This document shows, piece by piece, positions 3,569-60,740 of a stretch of 64,000 nucleotides of DNA (positions within the stretch are counted from its first letter, which is position 1; every line of letters starts with the position of its first letter). A program made the translations under genes and the position numbers. The notes below the pieces were generated by a model. That model did no database searches. It saw only the letters and a list, made by a program, of their open reading frames with translations, and was not told the DNA's origin. The stretch is from Apostichopus japonicus. Its lineage: Eukaryota > Echinodermata > Holothuroidea > Aspidochirotida > Stichopodidae. The stretch lies in NCBI RefSeq assembly GCF_037975245.1, contig NC_092579.1:30217666-30281665 (forward strand), given 5' to 3'.

Positions 3569-4040
3569 CCAATATGGAAGGGTTTTAACACGGGAAATGA
3601 TTGTATGTTATTGTCATGCGATGTATATGATTATGATATGCACAGTACCGTGTTGAACTTATATCATTATCATCATAATTATTGTAACGACTTCCCTATA
3701 ATGATAACCAATATAGAAGGGTAATAACACGGAAAATGATTGTTTGTCATTGGCATGCGATGTAATATCCGATGCATGCCTATATGATATGCACATTAAG
3801 ATGTTGTACGCGCGAAAAAGTTTGGTTACATTTTTCGAGCAAGTCGTTACAGCCCCCCCCCCCCCAAATCAAATTGGGCTCCTATACGCCTATGACTATC
3901 ATAAAACACTGAAAACTGGTGGCGAGACAGATAGCAGTGGCTATTCAGTACTTATATAAATGGATACGGAGGTGCTTCTGATATGATGGCACAATGAGGC
4001 TATACCAGCAACAAAGACAATATGAAAAACACCCGATTTG

Positions 4041-4146: not shown

Positions 4147-7100
4147 ATGATGAAGTTACCAGCAGCAGTCATATGCCTTTTAGCTGTTTTAATTTGTGGT
4201 AAGTTTTTTTTTATCTACATTTAATTCTAATACTTTTTTATTAAAAATCACCCATGATAGAGCGTTGGGAACGTTACACACTCCCAGACACACTCCCTTG
4301 ACATGAAGAGTGTAGTAACCATGTTATTATCACGATGTTATATCAAGCTATAGGTATCACTATAGGCCCATAGGAAGGGAACAGATATACTACACACGAT
4401 CTTAGCCAAACGGTAAGAGAACCCTCTGTCCTTAATCCCTTTCCTTTCTTCTACATCCCTCTGCATTGATGTGCATTGTTAATCCCTTCGCTAAGATCAT
4501 GGGTAAATGTTAAGTTAATGCTTTGGCTTGGGCTTAACCTTCGCCAACACCTTGTGTAAATTAAAGGGTCCTTGGTTTGCCTCAACGTCATAGGCGTAGG
4601 AGACGGGGGGGCTGGGGGGCAATATTCGGGCAATATGCTGAGAAATTTTCGAAAAATATTAGTTGTGAAGATGTAGCTATAAAGGAAATGAATAGTTTAA
4701 AAAAATCTCCCTGGTAATTAAAATAAAGTTTTAAGCTTGCCCGACTAATTCGCCATTACTAATGTAAAATCCTATATATGATATTTACATGAACATGTTA
4801 AATGCGCGCGGAGCTTGCGAAAAATTGTGGTTAATTTTTTTCGGGCAAGTCGTTACAGCCCACATCCCCCCCCCCCCCCAATCAAATTGGGCATCTGCGC
4901 GTATGCTCAACGTGTAATGCAATGTTACTTATCTGAAGTAGTTTTCGTTCCCAACATCTTTTGGTTAAAGTTCCTAATCCCACTAGAGACCCTTGTTGCT
5001 TCTGTCTCAGTAACTTTGTGGTTTGTGTATAGATATTTAGGCAAAGGTAAATAATGGTGTGATTTAATGGCGTGTTTAGGCTTTACGTGTGTTTGCATGC
5101 ACGTTGCCAATAAATAATCCACTTAAGATACCACTTGCTGTAATTACAACTGATAACCGGATATCAATGATGTTCCAACAAGTCATGTCACAAACTTGGA
5201 CTCAAGTCGTATTTTCTGGCGAGTTGACTCAAGACCACACCCCAAATAACTTTGACTACAGTCAAAACTAAATCGATTTGGCTCTACCGTCACTTGATTT
5301 CCAGCCATTGGCATAGGCGTAGGAGCCCAATTTGATTGGGGGGGGGGGGGGCTATAACGACTTGCCCGAAAAATATCACCACAATTTTTCGCGCGTACAA
5401 CATCTTACCGTGCATATCACATAGGCATGCATCGGTTATTATATCGCATGCCAATAACATACAATCATTTTCCGTGTTTTTCACTTATTACCCTTCCATA
5501 TTGGTTATCATTATTGGGGAACTCGTAACAATAGTTATGATAATAATGATATAAGTTTAACCATTATAAAACACATTGCAAATTATTTTTCTTTCAGTAG
5601 GTGACCGAAAATTTCTCAGTATATTGCACGAATTTTCACGAAAATATTTGGTTGGGGCTGCAGCCCCCCAACCCCCCTCCTACCCCTATGGTCATTGGCA
5701 AGTACGCTTGGCCATCTTTTATTAGATAGAACATATATTCTATATTCATTTTACCGTTTCTAATCATATCATAAATCAACACACCCTTACTGTGATAGCA
5801 GGCCTGTGCATTCTCTTACAGCAGTCATATTTTACAGTTAATTTCCTTACATGATAGGATATACCTTCAAACAAACTGGGTTCAGTTGCCCGCATATTTC
5901 TCTTAACCAGCTCTTTACTCAACAATCAATCAAACTAAATCGTGGCAGGGCGTATCTGTTTGCAATGGTTTAGAAGGATCTGGGACTAGGGCAGGTAGTT
6001 TACACGGAACAAAATGTAACTGACGGAGAGGTGGGATGTCTTGCTATCGAGACAAGGATCCAGGGCATTGTGTAATACAATCGCCGCCAACTGAACTTAT
6101 ATCATATCTAGAAAATACCAACGAAACTTAGTCAATAATATCTCAAGAGGGACTTTACTTTCCGAATTGAGTTTTTTGTTGGTCTTTGTATGGAAAATTT
6201 GCTTTAAAGCTACTATGTATTGCGGTAAACATGACCAGTACTTAGACCGGAAATCACAAATGGTCCCACAAATGCTACGAATATCGAGCACAGAATATGA
6301 ATTTACAAGATAATTTTACTTTTCTCCTTAATCCTTTACTGATTTCTTTCAGCAGGCTTCACAAATGCCTCAGCACCAATGACTCTTACCGACGCCACTT
6401 TTCAGACCGAGCTGGAAAAGGGAGACACTATGATGGGTTTTTTCTGGGCTCCTTGGTAAGGAGTATCATGGTTCACAAAAATGCTTCTAAAATGATAGGC
6501 ATCCAGATAACAATAACAAACTTTGAAACGATAGTCGGAATGTATGTAGAGACAGTGATTGCAGTCCGGTGTATAATAAAGATAACCAACTGAAAATAGA
6601 ACAATACTAACCCTTCTGAATATGGAACATGATATAAAACGGTCCATAGAGTGCATGGTTATCCAATAGGCAGAAAATAGCAAGTTTGGTCGAGGGGCCC
6701 ACAGTCAAGGTGCCCCACGGTCAAGATGCGCTACGATCAAGGTGCGGTGTGGTCAAAGGGCCCACGGTGAAGGGGCACCACAGTCAAGGTGCCTCACGGT
6801 CAAGGGGTCCAGTTTTAAGTAAAGCACTTCCATGCAAGACACATACCAACTTTTCATTTTCAGGTCGTGGGCTGATAAATCTTAACAAAGCCGGCGGGGC
6901 AAGTCTATGGTGCCGTCGGGCTCCAAGGGTGTAATTCTTGGTCTGGGATCAGTATGATAGCTGTAATCAGTAACTCAATCTTACTGTAATTTGTCTCCTT
7001 CTATGCCCTGATGATAATAATAATAATAATGATGGTGATGAAGATGATGATCCTGATAATAATGATCATAGTCATCATCACCATCGTCATCAGGATCATC

Positions 7101-7793
7101 GTCGTAATCATCATAATCGTAATCACCATCACGGAGACATTGGACCATGGACATTTGACATTGGACATTTGATATTGGACAATGGACAATGGACATTGGA
7201 TATGAATTATGAATACCAATATCACCATAATATTTACATTGACTCAATGCTTGATAAAGGGCCGGGGCTTTCGAGCGAAAGATGCGCAGGACAAAATACA
7301 TGTAAGTTTAATATGCCCGGTATTCGTTGTAACATATTATAAATAAATTCCTAACAATAAGCTATTTTTTTCTTCTTAAAGGTGTGGTCCGTGTAGAATG
7401 ATTGCACCCATGCTTGACGAACTTGTAGAAGAGTATGATGGGAAACTGAAGATCTACAAGTTGAACACCGACGAAAATCCAGTAGGTTTATTGCAATATG
7501 TAAACTCGATATACATGATAGAAATGTAACCACACGAAATAAAGAGAGATCAAACATACAAAGTTAGGCATGTACTAAATTAGAAGAAGTGTTAAAAGAA
7601 AAGGAATTAATTATTTATATTGTAAATAAAAAGAATTGATGTAAATGTTTTCTTTTTCTAGGTGATTCCAGTCACTTATGGCGTCTACTCGATACCGACG
7701 TTGTTGTTCTTCAAAATGGGTCAGGTAGTCGATACAGTACTCGGGGCCCAACCAAAGTCTAAAATTGCAAATATAATTGATCATTTGATGTAA
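4147..7793 (+). CDS. Secreted bacterial-type thioredoxin, copy A (4 exons)
   Basis: Exons are 4147-4198, 6356-6455, 7382-7481 and 7662-7793, all with GT-AG introns; the stop TAA ends at 7793. Two ATGs are adjacent (4147 and 4150); counting from the second, as in copy B, gives 126 residues. Residues 1 to about 22 are a hydrophobic signal peptide ([16 protein letters not shown]), so the product should be secreted. The thioredoxin fold follows: [14 protein letters not shown] with redox cysteines C51 and C54, KLNTDENP, and the cis-proline motif SIPT at P95. The wording is closest to bacterial and plastid Trx-m proteins, not animal Trx1/Trx2. The position of the buried acid (Asp26 in E. coli Trx) is Phe45 here, which may weaken catalysis. 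An NAS sequon follows the signal peptide. Expected role: thiol-disulfide exchange outside the cell. The physiological partner is unknown. Confidence 0.9.
4589..4905. mobile_element. GGCGTAGGAG-family element with perfect 8-bp TSD (intron 1, copy A)
   Basis: Left end CATAGGCGTAGGAG, right end CATCTGCGCGTATG, flanked by CTCAACGT at 4581-4588 and 4906-4913. Copy C has the uninterrupted site (one CTCAACGT next to GTAATGC, at about 28635-28650). Copy B has the same insertion. The 8-bp TSD places the family with hAT-like elements. Confidence 0.88.
5312..5700. mobile_element. GGCGTAGGAG-family element, 389 bp (intron 1, copy A)
   Basis: Left end CATAGGCGTAGGAG followed by a G-run; right end CTCCTACCCCTATG preceded by C-runs. 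The flanking octamers GCCATTGG (5304-5311) and GTCATTGG (5701-5708) match at 7 of 8. The corresponding site in copy C is empty; copy B carries the same element. Confidence 0.85.
6690..6815 (+). repeat. Minisatellite, AAGGTGCCCCACGGTC units (intron 2, copy A)
   Basis: About seven degenerate units of 16-18 bp around CAAGGTGCCCCACGGT. Equivalent arrays sit in intron 2 of B (19107-19230) and, on the opposite strand, C (about 26210-26370). Confidence 0.8.
7005..7200. repeat. ATC/ATG-rich simple repeat and GGACATT repeats (intron 2, copy A)
   Basis: Triplet repeats of ATA, ATG and CATCAT followed by short repeats of TTGGACATT. Also present in copy B (about 19376-19565). The long isoleucine and aspartate runs in translated frames are artefacts of these. 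Confidence 0.8.
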
Positions 7794-15574: not shown

Positions 15575-18500
15575 ATGAAGTTACCAGCAGCAGTCATATG
15601 CCTTTTAGCTGTTTTAATTTGTGGTAAGTTTTTTTATCTTATCTACATTTAATTCTAATATTTTTTATTAAAAATCACCCATGATAGAGCGTTGGCCACG
15701 TTACACACTCCCAGACCCACTCCCTTGACATGAAGAGTGTAGTAACCATGTTATATATCACGATGTTATATCAAGCTAGGTATCACTATAGGCCCATAGG
15801 AAGGGAACAGATATACTACACACGATCTTAGCCAAACGGTAAGAGAACCCTCTGTCCTTAATCCCTTTCCTTTCTTCTACATCCCTCTGCATTGATGTGC
15901 ATTGTTAATCCCTTCGCTAAGATCATGGGTAAATGTTAAGTTAATGCTTTGGCTTGGGCATAACCTTCGCCAACACCTTGTGTAAATTAAAGGGTCCTTG
16001 GTTTGCCTCAACGTCATAGGCGTAGGAGACGGGGGGCTGGGGGGGGGGGCAATATTCGGGCAATATGCTGGGAAATTTTCGAAAAATATTAGTTGTGAAG
16101 ATGTAGCTATAAAGGAAATGAATAGTTTAAAAAAATCTCCCTGGTAATTAAAATAAAGTTTTAAGCTTGCCCGATTAATTCGCCATTACTAATGTAAAAT
16201 CCTATATATGATATTTACATGAACATGTTAAATGCGCGCGGAGCTTGCGAAAAATTGTGGTTAATTTTTTTTCGGGCAAGTCGTTACAGCCCACCTCCCC
16301 CCCCCCCCCCCAATCAAATTGGGCATCTGCGCGTATGCTCAACGTGTAATGCAATGTTACTTATCTGAAGTAGTTTTCGTTCCCAACATCTTTTGGTTAA
16401 AGTTCCTAATCCCACTAGAGACCCTTGTTTCTTCTGTCTTCGTAACTTTGTGGTTTGTGTATAGATATTTAGGCAAAGGTAAATAATGGTGTGATTTAAT
16501 GGCGTGTTTAGGCTTTACGTGTGTTTGCATACACGTGGCCAATAAATAATCCACTTAAGATACCACTTGCTGTAATTACAACTGATAACCGGATATCAAT
16601 GATGTTCCAACAAGTCATGTCACAAACTTGGACTCAAGTCGTATTTTCTGGCGAGTTGACTCAAGACCACACCCCAGATAACTTTGACTACAGTCAAAAC
16701 TAAATCGATTTGGCTCTACCGTCACTTGATTTCCAGCCATTTGCATAGGCGTAGGAGCCCAATTTGATTGGGGGGGGGGGGGGCTATAACGACTTGCCCG
16801 AAAAATATCACCACAATTTTTCGCGCGTACAACATCATACCGTGCATATCACATAGGCATGCATCGGTTATTATATCGCATGCCAATAACATACAATCAT
16901 TTTCCGTGTTATTCACTTATTACCCTTCCATATTGGTTATCATTATTGGGGAACTCGTAACAATAGTTATGATAATAATGATATAAGTTTAACCATTATA
17001 AAACACATTGCAAATTATTTTTCTTTCAGTAGGTGACCGAAAATTTCTCAGTATATTGCACGAATTTTCACGAAAATATTTGGTTGGGGCTGCAGCCCCC
17101 CCCCCCAACCCCCCTCCTACCCCTATGGTCATTGGCAAGTACGCTTGGCCATCTTTTATTAGATAGAACATATATTCTATATTCATTTTACCGTTTCTAA
17201 TCATATCATAAATCAACACACCCTTACTGTGATAGCAGGCCTGTGCATTCTATTACAGCAGTCATATTTTACAGTTAATTTCCTTACATGATAGGATATA
17301 CCTTCAAACTGGGTTCAGTTGCCCGCATATTTCTCTTAACCAGCTCTTTACTCAACAATCAATCAAACTAAATCGTGGCAGGGCGTGTCTGTTTGCAATG
17401 GTTTAGAAGGATCTGAGACTAGGACAGGTAGTTTACATGGAACAAAATGTAACTGACGGAGAGGTGGGATGTCTTGCTATTGAGACAAGGATCCAGGGCA
17501 TTGTGTAATACAATCGCCGCCAACTGAACTTATATCATATCTAGAAAATACCAACGAAACTTAGTCAATAATATCTCAAGAGGGACTTTACTTTCCGAAT
17601 TGAGTTTTTTGTTGGTCTATGTATGGAAAATTTGCTTTAAAGCTACTATGTATTGCGGTAAACATGACCAGTACTTAGACCGGAAATCACAAATGGTCCC
17701 ACAAATGCTACGAATATCGAGCACAGAATATGAATTTACAAGATAATTTTACTTTTCTCCTTAATCCTTTACTGATTTCTTTCAGCAGGCTTCACAAATG
17801 CCTCAGCACCAATGACTCTTACCGACGCCACTTTTCAGACCGAGCTGGAAAAGGGAGACACTATGATGGTTGAATTCTGGGCTGAATGGTAAGGAGTATC
17901 ATGGTTCACAAAAATGCTTCTAAAATGATAGGCATCCAGATAACAATAACAAACTTTGAAACGATAGTCGGAATGTATGTAGAGACAGTGATTGCAGTCC
18001 GTATGGAAAGCCGTTTTAACATTTAATAAGGAATTTCAGATATCTCGAAATAATTTCAGATATCTCAAATTAAATTACAGATATCTCCAATTTATTTAAG
18101 ATATCTACAAATAATTGCAGATATCTTAAAATCAATTTCAGATATCTCGAAATACCAGGGAATTTCAGATATCTGAAATTGAATTCGAGATATCTCGAAT
18201 TCAATTTCAGATATCTCGAATTCAATTTCGGATATCTCGAATTCAATTTCAGATATCTGAAATAGAATTTTGGATATCTCGAATTCAATTTCAGATATCT
18301 CGAATTCAATTTCAGATATCTGAAATAAAATTTCAGATATCTCGAATTCATTTTCAGATATCTCGAATTCAATTTCAGATATCTCGAATTCAATTTCAGA
18401 TATCTGAAATAGAATTTTAGATATCTCGAATTCAATTTCAGATATCTCGAATTTCATTACAGATATCTGAAATTTCCCGATTAAATGTTAAAATGGCTTT

Positions 18501-20156
18501 CCATGCGTGCCATTTTAACATTTAATCGGAAATTTATGCATATGCATTTCAGATATCTCGAATTCAATTGCAGATATCTCGAATTCAATTTCAGATATCT
18601 CGAATTAGAATTGCAGATATCTTGAATTCAATTTCAGATATCTCGAATTAAATTTCAGATATCTCGAATTCAATTTCAGATATCTGAAATAGAATTTCAG
18701 ATATCTCGATTTCAATTTCGGATATCTCGAATTCAATTTCAGATATCTCGAATTCAATTTCAGATATCTGAATTAGAATTTCAGATATCTCGAAATCTAT
18801 TTTAGATATCTCGAATTCAATTTCAGATATCTCGATTTCAATTTCAGATATCTGAATTAGAATTTCAGATATCTCGAAATCTATTTAAGATATCTCGAAT
18901 TCAATTTCAGATATCTGAAATAAGAAACAATTTCAGATATCTAAAATTCCCGATTAAATGTTAAAATGGCTTTTCATAAGTCCGGTGTATAATAAAGATA
19001 ACCAACTGAAAATAGAATAATACTAACCCTTCTGAATATGGAACATGATATAAAACGGTCCATAGAGTGCATGGTTATCCAATAGGCAGAAAATAGCAAG
19101 TTTGGTCGAGGGGCCCACAGTCAAGGTGCCCCACGGTCAAGATGCGCTACGATCAAGGTGCGGTGTGGTCAAGGGGCCCACGGTGAAGGGGCACCACAGT
19201 CAAGGTGCCTCACGGTCAAGGGGTCCAGTTTTAAGTAAAGCCCTTCCATGCAAGACACATACCAACTTTTCATTTTCAGGTCGTGGGCTCCAAGGGTGTA
19301 ATTCTTGGTCTGGGATCATTATGATAGCTGTAATCAGTAACTCAATCTAACTGTAATTTGTCTCCTTCTATGCCCTGATGATAATAATAATAATAATGAT
19401 GGTGATGAAGATGATGATCCTGATAATAATGATCATAGTCATCATCACCACCGTCATCAGGATCATCGTCATCGTTGTAATCATAATAATCGTAATCACC
19501 ATCACGGAGACATTGGACCATGGACATTTGACATTGGACATTTGATATTGGACAATGGACATTGGATATGAATTATGAATACCAATATCACCATAATACT
19601 TACATTGACTCAATGCTTGATAATGGGCCGGGGCTTTCGAGCGAAAGATGCGCAGGACAAAATACATGTAAGTTTAATATGTCCGGTATTCGTTGTAACA
19701 TATTATAAATAAATTCTAACAATAAGCTATTTTTTTCTTCTTAAAGGTGTGGTCCGTGTAGAATGATTGCACCCATTCTTGACTATCTTGTAGAAGAGTA
19801 TGATGGGAAACTGAAGATCTACAAGATGGATGTCGACGCAAATCAAGTAGGTTTATTGCAATATGTAAACTCGATATACATGATAGAAATGTAACCACAC
19901 GAAATAAGGAGAGATTAAACATACAAAGTTAGGCATGTACTAAATTAGAAGAAGTGTTAAAAAGGAATTAATTATTTATATTGTAAATAAAGAGAACTAC
20001 TATATATGTTTTCTTTTCCTATAGGATGTTCCGGCCAAGTATGGCGTCCGCGGGGTACCGACGTTGTTGATCTTCAAAATGGGCGAGGTAGTCGCTACAA
20101 GTGTTGGGGCTTTGTCAAAGGTCGACATGGAGGCGTTCATTAACACCAATATATAA
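15575..20156 (+). CDS. Secreted bacterial-type thioredoxin, copy B (4 exons)
   Basis: Exons are 15575-15623, 17789-17888, 19747-19846 and 20025-20156, encoding 126 residues. The signal peptide is identical to copy A. A point change (ATG to ATA) removes the upstream ATG that copy A has. The core reads [19 protein letters not shown] with redox cysteines C51 and C54, then [14 protein letters not shown] with cis-Pro95 and VGALSK. This is strikingly like gammaproteobacterial TrxA. The buried acid is Glu45, a conservative change from Asp. It is the most canonical of the three copies and the best candidate for an active secreted thiol-disulfide oxidoreductase. The mature protein has no cysteines outside the active site. 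Intron 2 is lengthened by a 977-bp repeat element; splice sites are intact. Confidence 0.92.
16015..16337. mobile_element. GGCGTAGGAG-family element (intron 1, copy B)
   Basis: Orthologous to 4589-4905 of unit A, with the same CTCAACGT duplication at 16007-16014 and 16338-16345. G- and C-run lengths differ from copy A. Confidence 0.88.
16744..17127. mobile_element. GGCGTAGGAG-family element (intron 1, copy B)
   Basis: Orthologous to 5312-5700 of unit A. Flanks are GCCATTTG and GTCATTGG. Confidence 0.85.
18002..18978. mobile_element. Double MITE filled with 21-bp GATATC/GAATTC satellite
   Basis: Termini TATGGAAAGCCGTTTTAACA and the inverse of TATGAAAAGCCATTTTAACA are inverted over about 26 bp with two mismatches. 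AGTCCG (17996-18001 and 18979-18984) flanks both sides, and the site is empty in copy A (AGTCCG at 6563-6568) and in copy C. The inside is a 21-bp tandem repeat, AATTTCAGATATCTCGAATTC with variants ending CTGAAATAG. At about 18481-18530 two termini meet back to back, so this is two elements joined or one inserted beside another. Because 21 is divisible by three, several frames are open for 121 codons; they are not genes. Confidence 0.85.
19107..19230 (+). repeat. Minisatellite, AAGGTGCCCCACGGTC units (intron 2, copy B)
   Basis: Counterpart of the array at 6690-6815. Confidence 0.8.
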
Positions 20157-25668: not shown

Positions 25669-28600
25669 TTACATCAAATAATCAATTATATTTGCAATTT
25701 TAGACTTTGGTTGGTCCCCGAGTACTGTATAGACTTCCTGGCCCATTTTGAAGAACAACAACGTCGGTATCGAGTAGACGCCATAAGTGACTGGAATCAC
25801 CTAGAAAAAGAAAACATTTACATCAATTCTTATTATTTACAATATAAATAATTAATTCCTTCTTTTAACACTTCGTCTAATTTAATACATGCCTAACTTT
25901 GTATATTTAATCTCTCCTTATTTCGTGTGGTTACATTTCTATCATGTATATCGTTTTAACAGATGCTGACATTTCTTACGTATTGCAATAAACCTACTTG
26001 ATTTACGTCGAAATTCATCTTGTAGATCTTCAGTTGCCCATCATACTCTTCTGCCAGTTCGTCAATAACGGGTGCCATCCTTCGACTCGAAGCATCCCTT
26101 TAAGAAAAAATAAATAAGCTTATTGTTCGGAATTTATTTACATGTTATGACGAATACCGGACATGTATTTCGTCCTGCGCATCTTTCGCTCTTTTTACTT
26201 AGAACTGGACCCCTTGACCGTGAGGCCCCTTGACTGTGGTGTCCTTTGACCGTGGGGCACCTTGACCTTAGGGCACCTTTGACTGGTGCAACTTGACCGT
26301 TGACCCCTTGACCGTGGGCCACCTTGACCGTGGGGCACCTTGATCTTGACCGTGGGGCACCTTGACCAAACTTGCCATTTTCTGCCTATTGGATAACCAT
26401 GCACTGTTTTATATCATGTAATATCCGTTTTATATATATGGTCATGAGTTCGAGTCACTCCAAGATTAGTGTATGTCGTTTAGTTACAGAGTTGTTGACA
26501 ATTGACAATTCATAATCATAGACATAATTCATAGACACAATTCATAGACACATAATTCATAGACACAATTCATAATCATAATCATATGAATCTAAGAGAC
26601 TGACTTCGGTCAGCTTGCGGCTTTTATAATCCAATGATGGCTTCTTCGCGAGTTCCTGCTTGCAGGAGGATCTAATATACATACATACCAACATATACAT
26701 ACTTCATTCAGAAGGGTTAGTATTATTCTATTTTCAGTTGGTTATCTTTACACACTGGACTGCAATCACTGTCTCTACATGCATTCCGTCTATCGTTTGT
26801 TATTGTTATCTGGATGCCTATAATTTTAGAAGCATTTTTGTGAACCATGATACTCCTTACCATTCAGCCCAGAATTCAACCATCATAAAGTCTCCCTTTT
26901 CCAGCTCGGTCTGAAAAGTGGCGTCGGTAAGAGTTATTGGTGCTGAGGCATTTGTGAAGCCTGCTGAAAGGAATCAATTTAAAAGGAGGAAAGGTAAAAT
27001 TATCTTGTAAATTCATATTCTGTGCTCGATATATTTGTAGCATTTGTGGGACCATTTGTGATTTCCGGTTAAGTACTGGCCATGTTTAATGCAATACATA
27101 ATAGCTATATTGCAAATTTCCATACATAGACCTACAAAAAACTCAATTCGGAAAAGCAAAGTCCCTCTTGAGATATGGGGGGGGGGCACGTGCCCCCCTT
27201 TTTTTCCACAGGTTAAAAAAGTGCCCTTTTTCTACATAAAAATTGAGGTGTCTCAAGTTAGCAAGAGGCCAGGGAACCAGAATGAACACTCGGGAAGGGT
27301 CGTTTCCGGCCATCTGAGGGGTTTGTAAAACAAAAATTTTTCTTGTACGCTCCGCGCCAACCGATGGTGGCGCTCCGCTCATATGGTCGTACATACAACT
27401 TTGCAAATCCTGCCTACACCCATGACTCCTTATGAATTTCTGTAGGCCAAACTCAAGCCATTTCGAATGGAAAAAATTTGTTAAGATATTAACAAGAAAT
27501 AAACTCTAATTTGGAGGATTCCTACATTAGCAACTAGCATGATTTCACCTCATTTTGTCTCAAAAGAAAACTTGTTCCTTGTTTCCCAATTTGCACATTG
27601 GATATTGCAGTGCTAGTATGCATAATTACCTTGACCGGGGGGGGGGGGGGGCGTTGATGGAGTGATGTGTATAAGCAAATAAGATAATAATACAATAAGA
27701 GTTATAAAGGGTACTAAATATAAGGCTGCATCAGTCCAATCGAATTTCTGCAAAGTGCCCTTTGATGTCGGTGCCCCCCCCCCCCCCCCAGATTAAAAGG
27801 ATATTATTGACTAAGTTTCGTTGGTATTTTCTAGATATGATATAAGTTCAGTTGGCGGCGATTGTATTACACAATGCCCTGGATCCTTGTCTCGGTAGCA
27901 AGACATCCCACCTCTCCGTCAGTTACATTTTGTTCCATGTAAACTACCTGTCCTAGTCTCAGATCCTTCTAAACCATTGCAAACAGACACGCCCTGCCAC
28001 GATTTAGTTTGATTGATTGTTGAATATAGAGCTGGTTAAGAGAAATATGCGGGCAACTGAACCCAGTTTGTTTGAAGGTATATCCTATCATGTAAGGAAA
28101 TTAACTGTAAAATATGACTGCTGTAATAGAATGCACAGGCCTGCTATCACAGTAAGGGTGTGTTGATTTATGATATGATTAGAAACGGTAAAATTAATAT
28201 AGAATATATGTTCTATCTAATAAAAGATGGCCAAGCGTACTTGCCAATGACTGACATTAAGTGACGGTAGAGCCAAATCGATTTAGTTTTGACTGTAGTC
28301 AAAGTTATTTGGGGTGTTGTCTCGAGTCAACTCGCCAGAAAATACGACTTGAGTCCAAGTTTGTGACTTGACTTGTTGGAACATCATTGATATCCGGTTA
28401 TCAGTTGTAATTACAGCAAGTGGTATCTTAAGTGGATTATTTATTGGCAACGTGTATGCAAACACACGTAAAGCCTAAACACGCCATTAAATCACACCAT
28501 TATTTATCTTTGCATAAATATCTATACACAAACCACAAAGTTACAAAGACAGAAGAAACAAGGTTCTCTAGTGGGATTAGGAACTTTAACCGAAAGATGT

Positions 28601-28925
28601 TGGGAACGAAAACTACTTCAGATAAGTAACATTGCATTACACGTTGAGGCAAACCAAGGACCCTTTAATTTACACAAATTGTTGGCGAAGGTTATGCCCC
28701 AAGCCTAAGCATTAACTTAACATAATATAATAACATGGTTACTACACTCTTCATGTCAGGGGAGTGGGGCTGAGAGTGTGTAACGTACGTAATTGCTAAT
28801 ACAAATTCGTGCCAAGCTCTATCATGGGTGATTTTTATTAAAAAGTATTACATAAATGTAGATAAAAACTTACCACAAATTAAAACAGCTAAAAGGCATA
28901 TGACTGCTGCTGGTAACTTCATCAT
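25669..28925 (-). CDS. Secreted thioredoxin-fold protein with lost active site, copy C (4 exons)
   Basis: Minus-strand exons are 28925-28874, 26960-26861, 26097-25998 and 25800-25669, with lengths and intron phases equal to copies A and B. Frames are open to the TAA at 25671-25669. The signal peptide matches copy A. The core is VEFWAEW then DASSRRMAP: both catalytic cysteines are gone (positions 51-54 read D-A-S-S), as are the neighbouring Met and Ile. The cis-proline motif SIPT, the IYKM strand and the C-terminal helix are kept. The mature product has no cysteine, so it cannot be a thiol-disulfide enzyme. Intact splicing and frame argue against a simple pseudogene. A structural, chaperone-like or decoy role is only inference. 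Exon 4 is nearly identical to that of copy A. Confidence 0.85.
26210..26370 (-). repeat. Minisatellite, AAGGTGCCCCACGGTC units (intron 2, copy C)
   Basis: Inverted counterpart of the arrays in copies A and B, with a few extra degenerate units. Confidence 0.8.
26441..26680 (+). mobile_element. Candidate tRNA-derived SINE fragment (intron 2, copy C)
   Basis: AGTTCGAGTCACTCC (B-box-like) is followed by the same body as at 10240-10061, interrupted by an ATAATTCATAGACAC micro-expansion, ending GCGAGTTCCTGCTTGCAGGA. Not found in intron 2 of A or B. Confidence 0.5.
27177..27800. mobile_element. hAT non-autonomous copy with eroded ends (intron 1, copy C)
   Basis: Interior matches the 2555-3208 element from GGGGGCACGTGCCCCCC to GTGCCCCCCCCCCC AGATTAAAAG, but the outer CAAGGGCGGCGG ends are missing. 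The host sequence GAGATATTATTGAC of copies A and B is split, with GATAT on both sides. Confidence 0.8.
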
Positions 28926-29023: not shown

Positions 29024-29031
29024 CTTTTATA
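29024..29031 (-). promoter_or_regulatory. TATA box of thioredoxin gene C
   Basis: TATAAAAG on the minus strand in the same position as in A and B. A 474-bp foldback element begins about 40 bp further upstream. Confidence 0.65.
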
Positions 29032-29071: not shown

Positions 29072-29545
29072 TACGGAAGCGTAGAAGAGACATTGCATTG
29101 ACGAGTTACCAACTTGACAAAACGACAATTATCTGCAAATTGACGAGTTGACGAGATAGTAACGTGACAAAATTCAGAAAATTGACGTTTTGACGAGATA
29201 TGTTAACTCGTCGAAACGTCAATTTTCTGAATTTTGTCATCTTGTCGAGATGGTAGTAAGTGTGCAACTCGTCAATTTGCAGAAAAATTGCTGCATTGAC
29301 GAGATCCGTTAACTCGTCAAAACGTCAATTTTCTGAATTTTGTCAACTTGTCGAGATGGTAGTAAGTGTGCAACTCGTCAATTTGCAGAAAATTGATGCA
29401 CTGACGAGATCCGTTATCTCGTCAAAACGTCAATTTTCTGAAATTTGTCACGTTACCATCTCGTCAACTCGTCAATTTGCAGATAATTGTCGTTTTGTCA
29501 AGTTGGTAACTCGTCAATGCAATGTCCCTTCTACGCTTCCGTTTG
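29072..29545. mobile_element. Foldback element, TACGGAAGCGTAGAAG termini
   Basis: Arms of over 100 bp are inverted: the left begins TACGGAAGCGTAGAAG, then CATTGCATTGACGAGTTACC, and the right ends with the complement. Inside are alternating ACTCGTCAATTTGCAG and TTTGACGAG blocks in both orientations. TATA lies on both sides (29068-29071 and 29546-29549), whereas copies A and B have a single CTGGTATAGCC. A second copy begins at 63652. Confidence 0.85.
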
Positions 29546-37135: not shown

Positions 37136-37237
37136 TGAGAAATAACCTCAGACTGAACACTAATGCCAAAATACTACACATCAAAGACTACAACTTTGAA
37201 CCCGTTCCAAGTGAAGTGTATCTTTTCTGCAAGCAAC

Positions 37238-39982
37238 ATGAAAGCTTTTCTTAACGTGATGTCGAAGATCTCTTCTACGGTCCTCGTGCTTCAGATTTTA
37301 CCGTTACTAGCCTCGTCGACTACGTTTAAACTTGAACCTTTTGACTGTCCACAAGCTGACTGTGACAGTATCGTAGCTGTCTCACAAGCTCGAAAGTCGG
37401 GAAATGTTTATGTCACAACAGAGAGAAGACTGAAGGTATTGGACGAAGACCTTTTCGAGATACTCGACAGAAGAACAACTTCTCATCCTGATGAGCAAAA
37501 CGTTTTCACCATTTTGAGAGGCTCTGAGCTCCTCAGCTGCAAGAATTATTTCAACGGAACCAGTAATTGTGCGCTCCGAAATTGTTCTTCTTTGGACGTT
37601 ATATCTGGAGAATTAACCCATCAAGCAGGGCTCGTTTTTCCACTAGGAGGGGGTCCGATACTTGGTTGGATTCACGATAGTCCGTGGGGAGACGATTTAC
37701 TTACTCTCGCCATTTCAAGCAAGGACAGGGGAGAGGACGTGGACCCCTTACCTCTGGTAGCGACTCTAACTTTACCAAATGGGAGTTATTCAGCGGCTGG
37801 GTTTTTAAAATTTCTGACAAATGATTTCAATATCCCATCTTCATTTTTCCAGTCTATGTCATGTTTGAGTATCGACGTTGAACCAATCTATGGATTCGAT
37901 ACCGGAAGCCACAACTACATTCTAAAGGTACACACTGACAAGAGTGGACAGAAGAAAGAACTTAAACTAATCCGGATTTGTAAAGGTAGTATCAACTTCT
38001 GGTCCTACATGGAACTTCCTATCGAGTGTAAGCAGAGCGAAACCGCCGTGGACATCGGCCGGATCGTATCTTCGACTGCTTACTTTACCAACGATGTTTT
38101 ATATGTTTCAGTGACGAAGAATATTGGTGAAGGAGCTGAATCTCATATCTGTAATTTTACTATATCGACGATCAATGAGGCATTTACTGAAAGACGCCGG
38201 GAGTGTTTGGAAGGGAAAACAGACAGCACAGAACTCAAATGGTACCAGAATCAATATTGTCCACAAAATGCAACATCTGGACAGGTAAGATTGGCAGTGT
38301 TCTATTACTATTAAAAGCTTCTTAACCATGTCAAAATACCAAAAAAGTCGACTTATTCATGCTCCATGACTCACTCTCCCTCCAACCACCCAAACCCCAT
38401 TGACACCCAATCGGCAGGAGCACCCTAACGCACATTTCAATGTATAGGCTTATATGTAGAGTAATCAAGTTTTCAAATTAGGATAAAATCTGGAAGACGC
38501 TATTATTATGTTTGTCGGTTTATTTTGTTCCTTTCTTGTCCAACAATGTTATTCAAATGCTTTAACATTCTTAGCTCTAACTATTCTCATGCAAATCTTG
38601 TGTAAATTGGTATTATTTAAATTATTTATTATTAATTAAGGATATTGTATGAATATGTATAACAAATTAACGATCAAGGGGTAAAACACAGTTGTAATTG
38701 AGGGGAAGGGGGGGCGGAGTTGGTGTTAATATTAACAGACTATCTGATTTGGAAATGAGATTTATGGAATAGAATACGTGAAACGCCAGTGATTTCTTAG
38801 ACACGGTGTCACTGTTTAATGCTATATATGATGATAATAATAATTGCCATTATTGAAAATAATTCACCAACTGTAATTCCTAATGTTAGAACATACTTAT
38901 AACGTGACTGTTTTCCTTAATTGTTGTTTTTTCTCTCGCTCCGACAGTTTAATTTTTCTCGTCTAAATGACCCGGAGTACTGCTATGAAGAACCATACGC
39001 CCAACCTCTAGGGGGTACTAAACCGATCATTGGCGTTGCCATGGAGCAATTGACAATACACACTACCGTTACTGCGATGCTAGTAGTGGAGTCGTACGAC
39101 ACTGGTGACTACATCGAATACTTTCTAGGGGATAGGGAAGGCAACGTACATAGGGTAGGTATATATTACGATAGGACGATTTCGTGTTTTATCTTGTGAA
39201 AAAAGGGGATGGTCGTGAAAAGATTTTGGGCGGGAAAGACAGAGTGAATAGAATAGGGGCGGGGTTAGACAGAGTGAAAAATATAGGGGCGGGGTTAAGA
39301 TCAGAGTGAAAATAATAGGGGACGGGTTAAACAAAGTAAAAAGGTAGGGGCGTGGTTAGACAGAGTAAAGAGAATGGTGGAGGGGTTTGACAGAGTAACA
39401 AGAATAGGGGCGGGGTAAGACAGAGTGAAAAGAATAGGGGCGGGGTAACACAAGAGTGAAAAGTGTATAGCATTTCACATTCTTTGGGAATTTTGTTTTA
39501 TCTTTTATCCTTCCGTACCCATCTTAGCTGGGAGCGAAAAGGCAGAAAATATTTGTCACGATGCTTTTATTTATGCCAAGTTATGCTTCCGCCTGCTTTA
39601 TGTTTGAATAACAATCTTTACTCTATTCTCTTTAGAATTATGAGCATTTAATGTACCTTACATAATAGTAGTTGTTTCTGCAGGGTCTAATTATCATGTG
39701 ATCATAGAGCAGTGAAGATGGCTGGGTTTGTGTTTCCTCTAATGATATAACTTCATTCTGAAACGTTTTTAACATTGAGCGTACCACATACTGTCTGTTC
39801 CAAATAGATATCAAACGCTGGACGAGAAATCAAAGTCGTGGACGAAGGACACGGCATTCTGCAGGGTCGCAGTAGGGGCCTCCTCCTCAGTCCCAGTGGG
39901 GACCACGTGTACGCATCGAGTAATAGAAAGGTAAATGTTACATATCTCTAATGAATATGTGTATTCATGCATACTGCTGCTG

Positions 39983-51294: not shown

Positions 51295-53305
51295 AACATA
51301 TAGAATAGGGCCCATTATGATTGAAATAATACAAACATAGGCTAATTACACATTGACTCTGATCCGAGAAGCTAATAAGTAAGCACACATACATGTAAAA
51401 GCATACATAGTGCGCAAAGGTCTAGGTCAAAGGTCAAGGCCAACCTCCACCCTCCATCGTCCCTCGGCGAAAAAAAAAGACGTTCAGTCGAGGGATTTTT
51501 TTCCTTCAAAATTTAAAGGTATTTATTATCACAATCTTGCGTTTAGACCTAATTATAGAGGTAATTTATAGTCTAAATATGCTTCAGATTGCACCATTTG
51601 ACGTTTGAACTTTGACCCCAAACTCTCCTACATGAGTGTCACCTTCATACACCCTAGAGTCGTATCCCTCTTGATAGAATGTTTGATCCCTTTCCCGTCT
51701 CCATCTCTGCATATGCACATTCCTATCTACCAGAACTACATGCCTGGAATGTTTTAGCACTGCGCGCCTACACATTTCACTGCAGGTACTAAGTACTGCA
51801 TGTACCAGGCAAAGATACAGCACAATATCTGGTTGTTATCAGTTGTAACGTAAAATGTAACGTTACCTTATGAAGGTTCTCATTCGAATCGCCAAGCATG
51901 ATTATGTCTCACCGCGGTAGGTCGGTGATACGATCAATATATCACTACGAAATCCATCCGTTGTCAATGGAGACATTGCTGTTGCTACGATGGATTTACT
52001 CCCTCCAAGTGGTTGAGCTATAGACTCATTGTAACAGTAGCTGGGATCATCAAATCGAGAGAAATCAAGCTGCCGAGAAACAGAATAAATGAGGCTGAAT
52101 ATTTCTTGATAACGAGGGTAGCACTATTTGCTTATTTAGCTAAGGACAATAACCTATCTAAGAAAGCACACGAAGGCAGATATAACGCAAGTTAACATTC
52201 TAATTGTTTTAAAAGTTCTACAAAACAAACCAACATTTAACATTAGTTCCTTCTTTGATAATAATTTGATGAACCTTACCTGCGGTGGTGGGGCCTTTGG
52301 ACAATAGTTTAATCTGTGCCAAGGTATTTCGGTGGTTTTCGTCACACCCTCCAAACACTCCCGTCGTCTGTTGTTAAATCTGTTATTTATGAAGTCAATG
52401 TTGTACTGGCAAATGTACGTTTTAATGGTATGGTATTTTTTCTTTGTGAAGGAAACATACAATACGCCATTAGTATAATACGCAACAGACGAAACGAACT
52501 CCGTCTGTCCAGAAAGACCCTCATTGTGCCCCTGACACTCCAACGGCAGTTCCATATATGATCTATATGTTTGGTCATTTTTACACAGACGAATGAGTTT
52601 GACTTGCGTTACACCGCGTTCCTCGGTAGGCCTATGTGTCTTAAGGATGTATCGGTAATTTCCCGCCGTAAATCCATAAAATGGCTCAATATCGTCTGCT
52701 AAGCAAGGACTTGGTTGTAGGTAGGAAGACGGGACAAACTGATGGTCTACGAGAAGTTCCAGCGTTCGAAACGTTCTTGTCGATACCAGAGGTAGTGGTT
52801 GCGCGAAATGTACCCTCTCCTTAGTTGAGAGGGCGGTTGTGAGAACCGTCTCGTCACCGATATCATTATCAATCCAACCTACGATCGGACCACCTCCCGG
52901 ATATGTGACGTCACTTCCGGTTATCTCTTTTGATATTTCTTTTAGTGACGACGAATCTCGTAGCTCACAGGTTCCGCTGTTGTCGTTTTTACAGTTAAGG
53001 ATTTCCGACCCTCTCAGAATAGTTAACACATTGTTGTCTCCAGCTGTCATTGATGTGTTGACCTCTTTGATGAGGGTCAAGTCTTCTGCCAAAATCTTCA
53101 GACTTCTTTGTGTTGTGACGTAAATGTTTAGCGACGATTTGTCTTGCGTAATGCTTACAATTCTATCGCAATCCTTACTATCACACTCTGGTAGCTCGAA
53201 ACGGGAATAAGCGCAGACAGACGATGATTCTATGTGAAAAATTAAGATTAACAATGTAACAGACACAGTGGGCAATCTCCAATGATACAAGTTTGTGAAT
53301 GCCAT
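49754..53305 (-). CDS. Plexin-type SEMA-domain protein 2, frameshifted in exon 2 (4 exons)
   Basis: Minus-strand exons are 53305-52280, 52069-51867, 51184-51074 and 49888-49754; intron positions match SEMA gene 1. The ATG at 53305 begins a signal peptide (MAFTNLYHWRL then a hydrophobic core). The frame extends to an earlier ATG at 53407. Exon 1 encodes most of the SEMA domain (NIYVTTQRSLKILAEDLTLI, CKNDNSGTCELRD, GGGPIVGWID). Exon 2 is 203 bp where gene 3 has 204, and the frame hits TAA at 51904-51902; beyond the lost base the other frame resumes family sequence (LGDSNENLHK). Exons 3 and 4 are open and family-like. Exon 4 ends in a hydrophobic C-terminus (YLASSVILAITIIFIRV) like a GPI-attachment signal. 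This is a recent pseudogene, an assembly error, or a gene using an alternative donor in exon 2. Confidence 0.82.
50380..50840 (+). repeat. TATACTTGTAATATATA tandem repeat (intron 3 of SEMA gene 2)
   Basis: About ten degenerate units around ATACTTGTAATATATATACT with TGTATATATTATATGCTG spacers. Confidence 0.85.
51251..51293. repeat. (CA)n(TA)n microsatellite (intron 2 of SEMA gene 2)
   Basis: Short compound dinucleotide repeat. Confidence 0.9.
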
Positions 53306-53409
53306 TTTGATTAGATTTCTTTCAGCAATGCCACTCTTTTCTCGATATGTATACAACACCAGTAATGTAGGCTGTCTGGTTTTCCCAGTGCACCAGATTC
53401 CATGCAACC

Positions 53410-58265: not shown

Positions 58266-60668
58266 ATATATATATGTGTGTGTGTGCGTGTGTTTGTGTG
58301 AAGCTGTCACCGCATTAGTTACCTTACGAATGCTCCCACTATTGTCCCCGAGCAGGTACACCGTGTCACCGCGGTATGTGGGTGCCACGACTAGCAGGGC
58401 AACAACCGTTGCTTCAACTCTTGGGTGAGCTAGAGCAGTTTGTACGATGGCTTCATTCCCTCCGAGTGGCTGGGCGTGAGGTTCACTATAGCAGTAGTCC
58501 GGATCATCAAGCAGAGAGAAATTAAACTGTAAAGACAGAAAAAAAAAATAAAGTAGCCGTTTACTGCAGAATCGTTAGATCGTCACAACTTTAAAACAGA
58601 GTATTTTAAAAATTGTGAATTGAGAAGGCAAAAGTGAGATAAGACTCAGTCTGGAAAGGGAAGGAGGGGTGGGGGAGGGCAGGGGGGAGGTGGGGTGGGC
58701 AACGAATATTTGAGCGCCGTCTGCGACGTGGTTCTTTGACTCGAGGGGCTTAACCACAGAGATACCTCAAAACTCTCCAACAACGTGGATCCTCTATGCA
58801 TTCCATTCCACACAATGTTTGTTTTCCACAAAAAGTACATAATTCTATGTTTTCACACAACATTACGCACACTTTTACGTACTTTTACGTACACATATTT
58901 TATTGCATTTTCTAATTACGTTGAGGGAAACGATGTACGTTGTATTATCAACATCGGGTACAATCTAATTTTCAAGTTTGAGGTTTTACATATTGGGAGG
59001 GCATTGAACCCCCCCCCCCCCCCCCTTTGACGCCATTGAAATTCACCCTGCCCAGATCAACAGATAAACGATGTTTGTATAGCCATCCATCGGGGTGTGA
59101 GGGAGAAAAAAAAGCCATTTTTTTGCCCCACTTTTAATTGTCGCTATATATTGATAACACTTTTCATGACACCATGTAGGCTATTCCCTCTGTTACGAGT
59201 TCTAATTTTGTTTTAAGGGACGAGACAACTAATTTTTCTGACGTTTGTTTGGGTAGGGGTTAAAAGTTAGGGGAGGGGTTTAAAAGTAGGGAAGGGTTTC
59301 CACTTCTCTTTGGAGATTTGCTTTCGGTGAGGGGACTTAGATGTAAATTGGTGCTAACATTACCGTTATTTCACTTCATTTCTTTCATACGAGTTTACGT
59401 GTATGTGTAATGGGTATCGTTTTAGCCATTGGGGAGAACGTTTGGGGAGAGGAGGTGAGCGTAGGAGACACTTGCCCCCATGCCCCCTGCAGTGGATGTT
59501 TATAATTAGTGTCATATATTGGTCAAATCACGTTCGAAACTACAATATGATGGATAACCCATTTCTTCATTTTGATGAGTAAAACTTGACCTCTACCAAA
59601 ATGTTATCAACTTACCTGCGGTGGTGGGGCTTTTGGACAATAGTTTAATCTGTGCCAATGAATTTCGGTGGTTTTCGTCACACCCTCCAAACACTCCCGT
59701 CTTCTGTTGTTAAATCTGTTAGTTATGAGTTCAATGCTGTACTGGCAAATGTACGTTTTAATGCTTTGGTCTGCTTTCTTCGTGAATGTAACGTACAATA
59801 CGCCATTAGTATAATACGCAACAGACGAAACAAATTCCGTCTGTCCAGTAAGACCCTCATTGTGTCCCTGACACTCTAACGGCAGTTCCATATATGATCT
59901 ATATGTTTGGTCATTTTTACACAGACGAATGAGTTTGACTTGCGTTACACCGCGTTCCTCGGTAGGCATATGTGTCTTAAGGATGTAGCGGTAATTTGCA
60001 ACCGTAAATCCATAAAATGGCTCAATATCGTCTGCTAAACATGGACTTGGCTGTAGGTAGGAAGACGGGACGGAATAATCGTCTGTGAGCAGTTTCAAGT
60101 TACCCCCATTTGATGATGACGAATTTCCGCGGCTTGGAAATGTTCTTGTCGATACTAGAGGTAGTGGTTGAGCGACATTTACACTGTCCTTAGTTGAGAG
60201 GGCGGTAGTGAGCACTGTCCTCCCATCTAGACCTTTGTCAATCCACCCTACGATCGGACCACTTCCAGGATAGGTGACGTCACTTCCGGTTATCTCTTTT
60301 GATATTTCTGCTAGTGACGACGAATCTCGTAGCTCACAGGTTCCGCTGTTGTCGTTTTTACAGTTAAGGATTTCCGACCCTCTCAGAATAGTTAACACAT
60401 TGTTGTCTCCAGCTGTGTTGACCTCTTTGATGAGGGTCAAGTTTTCTGCCAGAATCTTAAGACTTCTTTGTGTTGTGACGTAAATGTTTTGTGTCGTTTC
60501 CTCCTGTGTAACGCTCACAATTTTATCGCAGTCATTATCAATACATTCTGATAATTTGAAACTAGTTTGCGCACAAACTGATGATGTATCGAAAAGGAAT
60601 AGTACGTTTAACAGTAACGGTAAACTTAAAATGAATTCTCCTCGGATATGCATTTTTCTGCAAAACAT
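56641..60668 (-). CDS. Plexin-type SEMA-domain protein 3 (4 exons)
   Basis: Minus-strand exons are 60668-59616, 58526-58323, 58080-57955 and 56826-56641; all introns are phase 0, GT-AG, and at the same positions as in the other two genes. The frame reaches an ATG at 60740; those at 60668 and 60653 precede the signal peptide (MHIRGEFILS plus a hydrophobic run) and give about 522 or 517 residues. SEMA landmarks: NIYVTTQRSLKILAENLTLI, CKNDNSGTCELRD, GPIVGWID, and CYSEPHAQPLGG in exon 2. Exon 4 replaces PSI/IPT with a Thr/Pro/Arg-rich stalk (PTEPRPTTVQPRTTRR) and a C-terminal hydrophobic segment (CGFLVLAVVLSIKSFIW) with no cytoplasmic tail, suggesting GPI anchoring as in semaphorin 7A. Fully open. 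Likely a surface-bound guidance or recognition protein. Confidence 0.9.
56905..57093 (-). repeat. 33-bp tandem repeat (intron 3 of SEMA gene 3)
   Basis: Six units of GACATTATTGGTAAGAAGAT followed by ACTCAGGTTTGTT. The minus strand reads as an 11-residue repeat (NKPEYLLTNNV), but the array sits inside an intron with no exon signals. Confidence 0.92.
58219..58300. repeat. (TA)n(TG)n microsatellite (intron 2 of SEMA gene 3)
   Basis: Compound dinucleotide repeat only 23 bp from the end of exon 2. Confidence 0.93.
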
Positions 60669-60740
60669 TTTGATCTGATTTTCAATACAGTTTATTCTGC
60701 ACCAAATTATATTTCCCGTGAAAAAGAGTCCAGAAAGCAA

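Follow-up and report, generated by a model that had tools for sequence, protein, structure and literature searches.

A cysteine-free thioredoxin copy in a diversifying gene family of the sea cucumber Apostichopus japonicus

Introduction

Thioredoxin is among the most conserved enzyme folds, and a thioredoxin gene without the cysteines of its redox site raises the question of whether the copy is decaying or whether its fold has been put to another use. Such a gene, here called copy C, lies in a stretch of 64,000 nucleotides (bases 30217666-30281665 of contig C19 in the 671.6-Mb Apostichopus japonicus assembly), referred to below as the window. An earlier sequence-only reading had compared C with two neighboring copies, A and B, described the replacement of seven consecutive codons at the active site, and taken the change for a repurposing of the fold instead of random decay. 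Our analyses indicate that the change is real and belongs to a family-wide process, not to the oddity of a single copy, and that repurposing is better supported than decay. We think it probable that C is a secreted, redox-dead binding pseudoenzyme of thioredoxin fold, within a young and diversifying family that loses its cysteines stepwise. Among the papers screened by title and the start of the abstract, we found none on this family.

Results

Copy C is an intact gene

The altered segment, 25998-26097, is precisely exon 3 of a four-exon thioredoxin gene on the minus strand, with three introns and a span of ~3.3 kb (Table 1). The sequence-only reading had held the gene to be intact and the cis-Pro loop to be kept, and both observations stand: the reading frame is unbroken, the introns have GT-AG splice sites, the cis-Pro (SIPT) is present, and we counted zero stops, frameshifts or broken splice sites. 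The product has 128 amino acids and ends in IIDYLM, without an ER-retention tail; as read from the gene, it appears to be a short secreted-type protein, with a signal exon followed by a single thioredoxin domain. Over a stretch of 91 bases that takes in flanking sequence, exon 1 is identical to that of A and 98.9% identical to that of B. At the tandem acceptor of exon 2, the second CAG is the one used in the proteins P0001-P0006, all of which read CGFTN. The PF00085 profile scores C at 80.1 bits, A at 96.4 and B at 107.5, against a curated cut-off of 23.5, and a search of C for a second domain at E up to 0.001 found none besides PF00085.

Table 1. Coordinates of the thioredoxin copies and of the elements around copy C. 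Positions are those of the window unless given on C19.
Feature	Position	Strand	Remarks
Copy A (CGPC)	4147..7793; exons 4147-4198, 6353-6455, 7382-7481, 7662-7793	+	NCBI protein P0002
Copy B (CGPC)	15575..20156; exons 15575-15623, 17786-17888, 19747-19846, 20025-20156	+	NCBI protein P0004
Copy C exon 1	28874..28925	-	Signal peptide, hydrophobic, judged by eye without a predictor
Copy C exon 2	26861..26963	-	Runs to split Trp codon TG|G; tandem CAGCAG acceptor
Copy C exon 3	25998..26097	-	(W)DASSRRMAPVIDELAEEYDGQLKIYKMNFDVNQ; without active-site cysteines
Copy C exon 4	25669..25800	-	cis-Pro kept (SIPT)
TATAAAAG box upstream of copy C	29024..29031	-	Block also present upstream of copies A and B
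Palindromic (MITE-like) insertion upstream of copy C, ~470 bases	29073..29542	.	Self inverted repeat, 79% over 471 bases
Copy D (NGPS)	C19 30204146-30210553, outside the window	-	
Copy E (NGPS)	C19 25621574-25625496, outside the window	+	

The database protein P0001 (127 amino acids, from an ENA contig of 531 bases) shares 98% identity with copy C and retains DASS, reading NIDENQ where C reads NFDVNQ. As the C gene takes up ~3.3 kb with three introns, this short contig is probably a cDNA or transcript, which would imply that C is expressed. A structure prediction, one of the checks that the sequence-only reading had proposed, confidently yields the thioredoxin fold for P0001 (AlphaFold2, mean pLDDT 89.6, pTM 0.79), with the strand and helix order of thioredoxin and a block pLDDT of 96-98 from residue 31 onward.

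Upstream of the genes, the pattern GTATAAAAGTGAACACTCG, with at most one mismatch, occurs at 4040, 15465 and 29014 (minus strand), against a mean of 0.00 in shuffled sequence. The MITE-like insertion sits between the upstream promoter block of C and the distal flank and is missing at A and B, whose upstream sequence aligns with that of C on both sides of it (for B, the distal side comprises 30 bases only).

Stepwise loss of the redox site

At the active site, A and B read TGT GGT CCG TGT AGA ATG ATT (CGPCRMI), and C reads GAT GCT TCG AGT CGA AGG ATG (DASSRRM, in the context WDASSRRMAP); the codons specific to C are GATGCTTCGAGT. The replacement without length change is confirmed: all seven codons and six of the seven residues differ, the fifth codon (AGA to CGA) being silent and keeping Arg, and between A and C the change amounts to 8 of 21 bases with zero indels. 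The WCxxC redox site is thereby missing in C (WDASS), and its mature protein is free of cysteine, as claimed earlier: the predicted mature part holds no Cys in C, D and E and two in A and B. That the change is clustered was borne out in part. The first seven codons of exon 3 are enriched for change (permutation p 0.0045 against A and 0.002 against B), while the unbroken run of seven is borderline (p 0.077 and 0.047, respectively); exons 3 and 4, however, vary along their whole length, and among the 33 whole codons of exon 3, A and C differ in 17 and B and C in 16. Exon 3 changes fast in general, most densely at the active site.

The idea of a single clustered replacement specific to copy C did not survive the comparison with the wider family. 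Both cysteines are missing in three of the five copies, C, D and E; the last two read NGPS, with the codons AAT GGT CCG AGT CGA AAG ATG (NGPSRKM) in D and AAT GGT CCG AGT AAA ATG ATT (NGPSKMI) in E, and C lies one step past a D-like state. The comparison that decides is with copy D, beyond the window: at the active site, C and D differ in 4 of 21 bases, each of these one-base steps changes an amino acid, and D is intermediate between CGPC and the DASS of C. Judging from the bacterial relatives, CGPC is most likely the ancestral state of the family and, on that assumption, the simplest route would be stepwise, from CGPC through NGPS to DASS. An origin of DASS by frameshift or microinversion was considered and ruled out: the ungapped codon alignment needs base substitutions only, and D provides an intermediate.

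A genome search with exon 2 places at least five genes in the family, all on C19 (5 of 5 scored candidates matched, a lower bound). Copies A to D have zero stops and zero frameshifts; in copy E, the signal exon carries a 1-base deletion and the NCBI model has its start at an ATG farther on, which shortens the signal. Copy A keeps CGPC and reads, in exon 2 near the split Trp codon (6353-6455), WAPW against WAEW; it also has Phe at a buried acid position, which we take to be residue 26 of E. coli thioredoxin, where B and C carry Glu, and its activity may be altered as well. P0005, an A. japonicus protein from a separate contig (609567 bases), reads CGPCRTI and is absent among the five copies, so that copy content may differ between individuals or assemblies. 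A query with the N-terminal 50 residues against 5.8 billion sequences returned six candidates, all six accounted for by P0001 and five A. japonicus proteins, and thus no orthologue from a second named species; in our searches, the family turned up in Apostichopus japonicus and as the one database sequence P0001, and nowhere else.

Coding change outpaces intron 3

The variable exons 3 and 4 are separated by intron 3, and we compared the nonsynonymous divergence (pN) with the synonymous one (pS) and with that of the intron; the gene pairs are non-independent and the p values uncorrected for many tests. For exon 3, pN exceeds the intron 3 divergence in 10/10 pairs, the bootstrap interval lying above zero in 8/10 (not in A-B and C-D); for exons 3 and 4 together, both hold in 10/10 pairs. 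In the cleanest pair, C-D, pN over the two exons is 0.182, pS 0.087 and the intron 3 divergence 0.085 (one-sided Fisher, p 0.0047 against intron 3 and 0.0025 against intron 3 plus synonymous), and exon 3 taken alone has no significant excess (p 0.14). In the pair A-C, exon 3 has a pN of 0.208 against 0.051 for intron 3 (p 0.0003), its pS being likewise high at 0.179, and for the two exons together the test against intron 3 plus synonymous changes gives p 0.052.

The acceleration has clear bounds. Across the five copies, exon 2 does not outpace intron 3 (15/103 against 28/176 columns, p 0.86), and other intron stretches exceed intron 3 in variation, with 106/267 columns in the first 300 bases of intron 1 and 24/102 in the last 120 of intron 2; the intron variation near exon 3 is mostly due to the own sequence of copy C. 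A conserved signal exon combined with mature exons outpacing the introns is a pattern confined to exons 3 and 4 when intron 3 is the reference, and it fails for exon 2 and against the other intron stretches.

The excess of coding change in exons 3 and 4 over the change in intron 3 argues against neutral decay, and the earlier judgement that random decay fits C poorly is supported across the ten gene pairs. The competing explanation would be that C, along with D and E, is a recent redundant duplicate turning into a pseudogene, the loss of cysteines reflecting relaxed constraint. The duplicates are indeed young, exon 1 being identical in A and C; the deletion in the signal exon of the sister copy E and the palindromic insertion upstream of C would fit such a course, and the expression of C is presumed from P0001. 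Decay alone, however, does not raise coding divergence above that of an intron lying between the same exons; furthermore, copies A to D are without stop or frameshift, P0001 keeps DASS, and the fold is predicted with confidence. We consider this explanation unlikely. The earlier claim of repurposing finds partial support in the intact gene, the coding excess over intron 3, the presence of DASS in a second sequence and the predicted fold, while the function itself is something that we infer.

Exon 4 versions and exon exchange

Exon 4 comes in two very different classes, one in A, C and D and the other in B and E. The between-class dS is 0.32-0.65 (A-B 0.62, B-D 0.65) and the divergence of the intron 3 sequence alongside only 0.05-0.10; in the pair B-D, 51 of the 132 exon 4 positions differ, compared with 9/176 in intron 3 and 6/150 in the bases past the stop. 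With a dS this high between the classes, point mutation and selection together do not account for everything. The copies also group inconsistently, C pairing with D by exon 3 and with A by exon 4, a sign that exchange of exons probably shaped the copies in addition to point mutations. The 3' flank is similar only within A/C and within B/D.

One could go further and assume that recombination did most of the work: old, diverged exon versions would have been shuffled by gene conversion and the introns homogenized, with little selection on new mutations. The two classes beside a nearly uniform intron 3 and the shifting partners of C are what such a process would leave, and the within-class pair A-C indeed has no nonsynonymous excess in exon 4 (dN 0.041, dS 0.035). 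The other within-class pairs do have one, however (C-D dN 0.257, dS 0.08; A-D 0.224, 0.138; B-E 0.234, 0.149), and conversion alone would not spare the exons while homogenizing their neighbors. An account mainly by recombination therefore seems improbable to us, and we retain selection for coding change, accompanied by some exchange of exon versions, as the better reading.

Origin of the family

Copy B shares 58% identity with a TrxA of Rhodoferax and 62% with one of Nitrosomonadales, two named betaproteobacterial sequences, over 79% of its length (among the best 120 of 7988 matches), and ~40% with the Trx2-like exon of the same genome. When 80 bacterial and archaeal loci are combined in a tree with the own Trx2, the family falls inside Pseudomonadota (98/88). 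A clade with the own Trx2-like exon, which sits on a very long branch, is unrejected, with p-AU 0.056 and then 0.582 in a second test, in which the likelihood was higher for the tree that keeps the two together. The identities thus suggest horizontal transfer but do not make a clear case for it, and a bacterial origin by this route is plausible.

Other features of the window

Intron 2 of copy B contains, at 18032-18916, a unit of 21 bases (AATTTCAGATATCTCGAATTC) repeated ~42 times. The minus strand carries two long reading frames of a single exon each, 52154-53407 and 59607-60740, which are 80% identical over 329 aligned positions and give weak Sema-domain matches below the cut-off. A frame of 383 amino acids at 37163-38314 (plus strand) has weak similarity to a plexin-A ectodomain (best E 4.3e-07) and matches no Pfam family at E up to 0.001; it may belong with the two Sema-like frames.

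Discussion

Without cysteines, C cannot perform thiol-disulfide exchange, and any function would have to work without that chemistry. The retention of the fold and of the cis-Pro loop in a cysteine-free protein favors noncovalent binding outside the cell, and we envisage the following course: from a CGPC ancestor, one branch would have lost both cysteines, giving the NGPS of D and E, and C would have proceeded to DASS. Under a conserved signal exon, selection for coding change in exons 3 and 4, together with some exchange of exon versions, would have produced differing protein surfaces, and the product of C would bind a protein partner through its thioredoxin fold, possibly in competition with the CGPC paralogues A and B.

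A more specific variant would make C a dominant-negative or decoy: with its docking surface retained, it would bind the same partners as A and B and modulate a redox signal outside the cell, on oocytes or immune cells for instance. What speaks for it is that CGPC-bearing and dead copies stand side by side and that thioredoxin can act externally on holothuroid oocytes (PMC8388914). The docking face itself tells otherwise. We take it to comprise residues 33, 34, 60, 73, 74, 75, 91 and 93 (the face and its E. coli numbering being assumed), and all of these differ among the copies, which argues for different partners; on the substrate face, again in assumed numbering, variable residues are not significantly enriched (10/13 against 44/73, p 0.36). 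We regard the decoy as very improbable. Rather more speculative than the binding pseudoenzyme itself is a comprehensive scenario, conceivable though doubtful, in which a thioredoxin of bacterial type acquired a signal peptide and introns, diversified in the manner of venom or recognition genes and dropped its redox site step by step, yielding secreted binders for gametes or immunity.

One genome holds copies with CGPC, copies at the intermediate NGPS and, as the end point, a copy with DASS, and the family offers a traceable and testable path from enzyme to binder. Among known systems, the bacterial TrxA (PF00085) resembles C in its one Trx domain, its cis-Pro and much of the surrounding sequence; unlike it, C has a signal exon and three introns and is without both cysteines. 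Redox-dead thioredoxin folds that work by binding are found in the PDI family, where ERp27, ERp29 and PDILT are ER residents and mostly multidomain; C shares with them the loss of the catalytic cysteines but is a lone domain with no ER-retention tail. The chaperedoxin CnoX/YbbN of E. coli, which has an SXXC site and combines a Trx domain with a TPR domain, acts by binding clients (PMC11241051). C is like it in having a Trx domain with an altered active site; CnoX, however, keeps one Cys of the motif and has the TPR domain (PMC11241051), whereas both are missing from C, which has a signal exon.

Closer to the animal itself is Trx-REES, an 18 kDa echinoid thioredoxin that triggers holothuroid oocyte maturation, thought to act via CGPC; E. 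coli thioredoxin is reported to trigger the maturation too, and the authors raise a holothuroid thioredoxin as a possible natural inducer (PMC8388914). Trx-REES and C have in common the echinoderm setting and an action, presumed in the case of C, outside the cell, a likeness by description and not by sequence, and the effect of E. coli thioredoxin makes the role of the sea cucumber's own secreted-type thioredoxins a direct question (PMC8388914). In its mode of change, the family resembles the snake-venom genes for which ASSET was described, with a conserved signal exon, mature exons faster than introns and switched exon segments (PMC2711939); the B and D versions of exon 4, lying between flanks that are ~5% different, form a similar pattern. 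The proteins and the animals are unrelated, and the comparison is an evolutionary analogy only, implying no venom role; what was described as exon acceleration in snake venoms (PMC2711939) is seen here in an echinoderm family with secretion signals.
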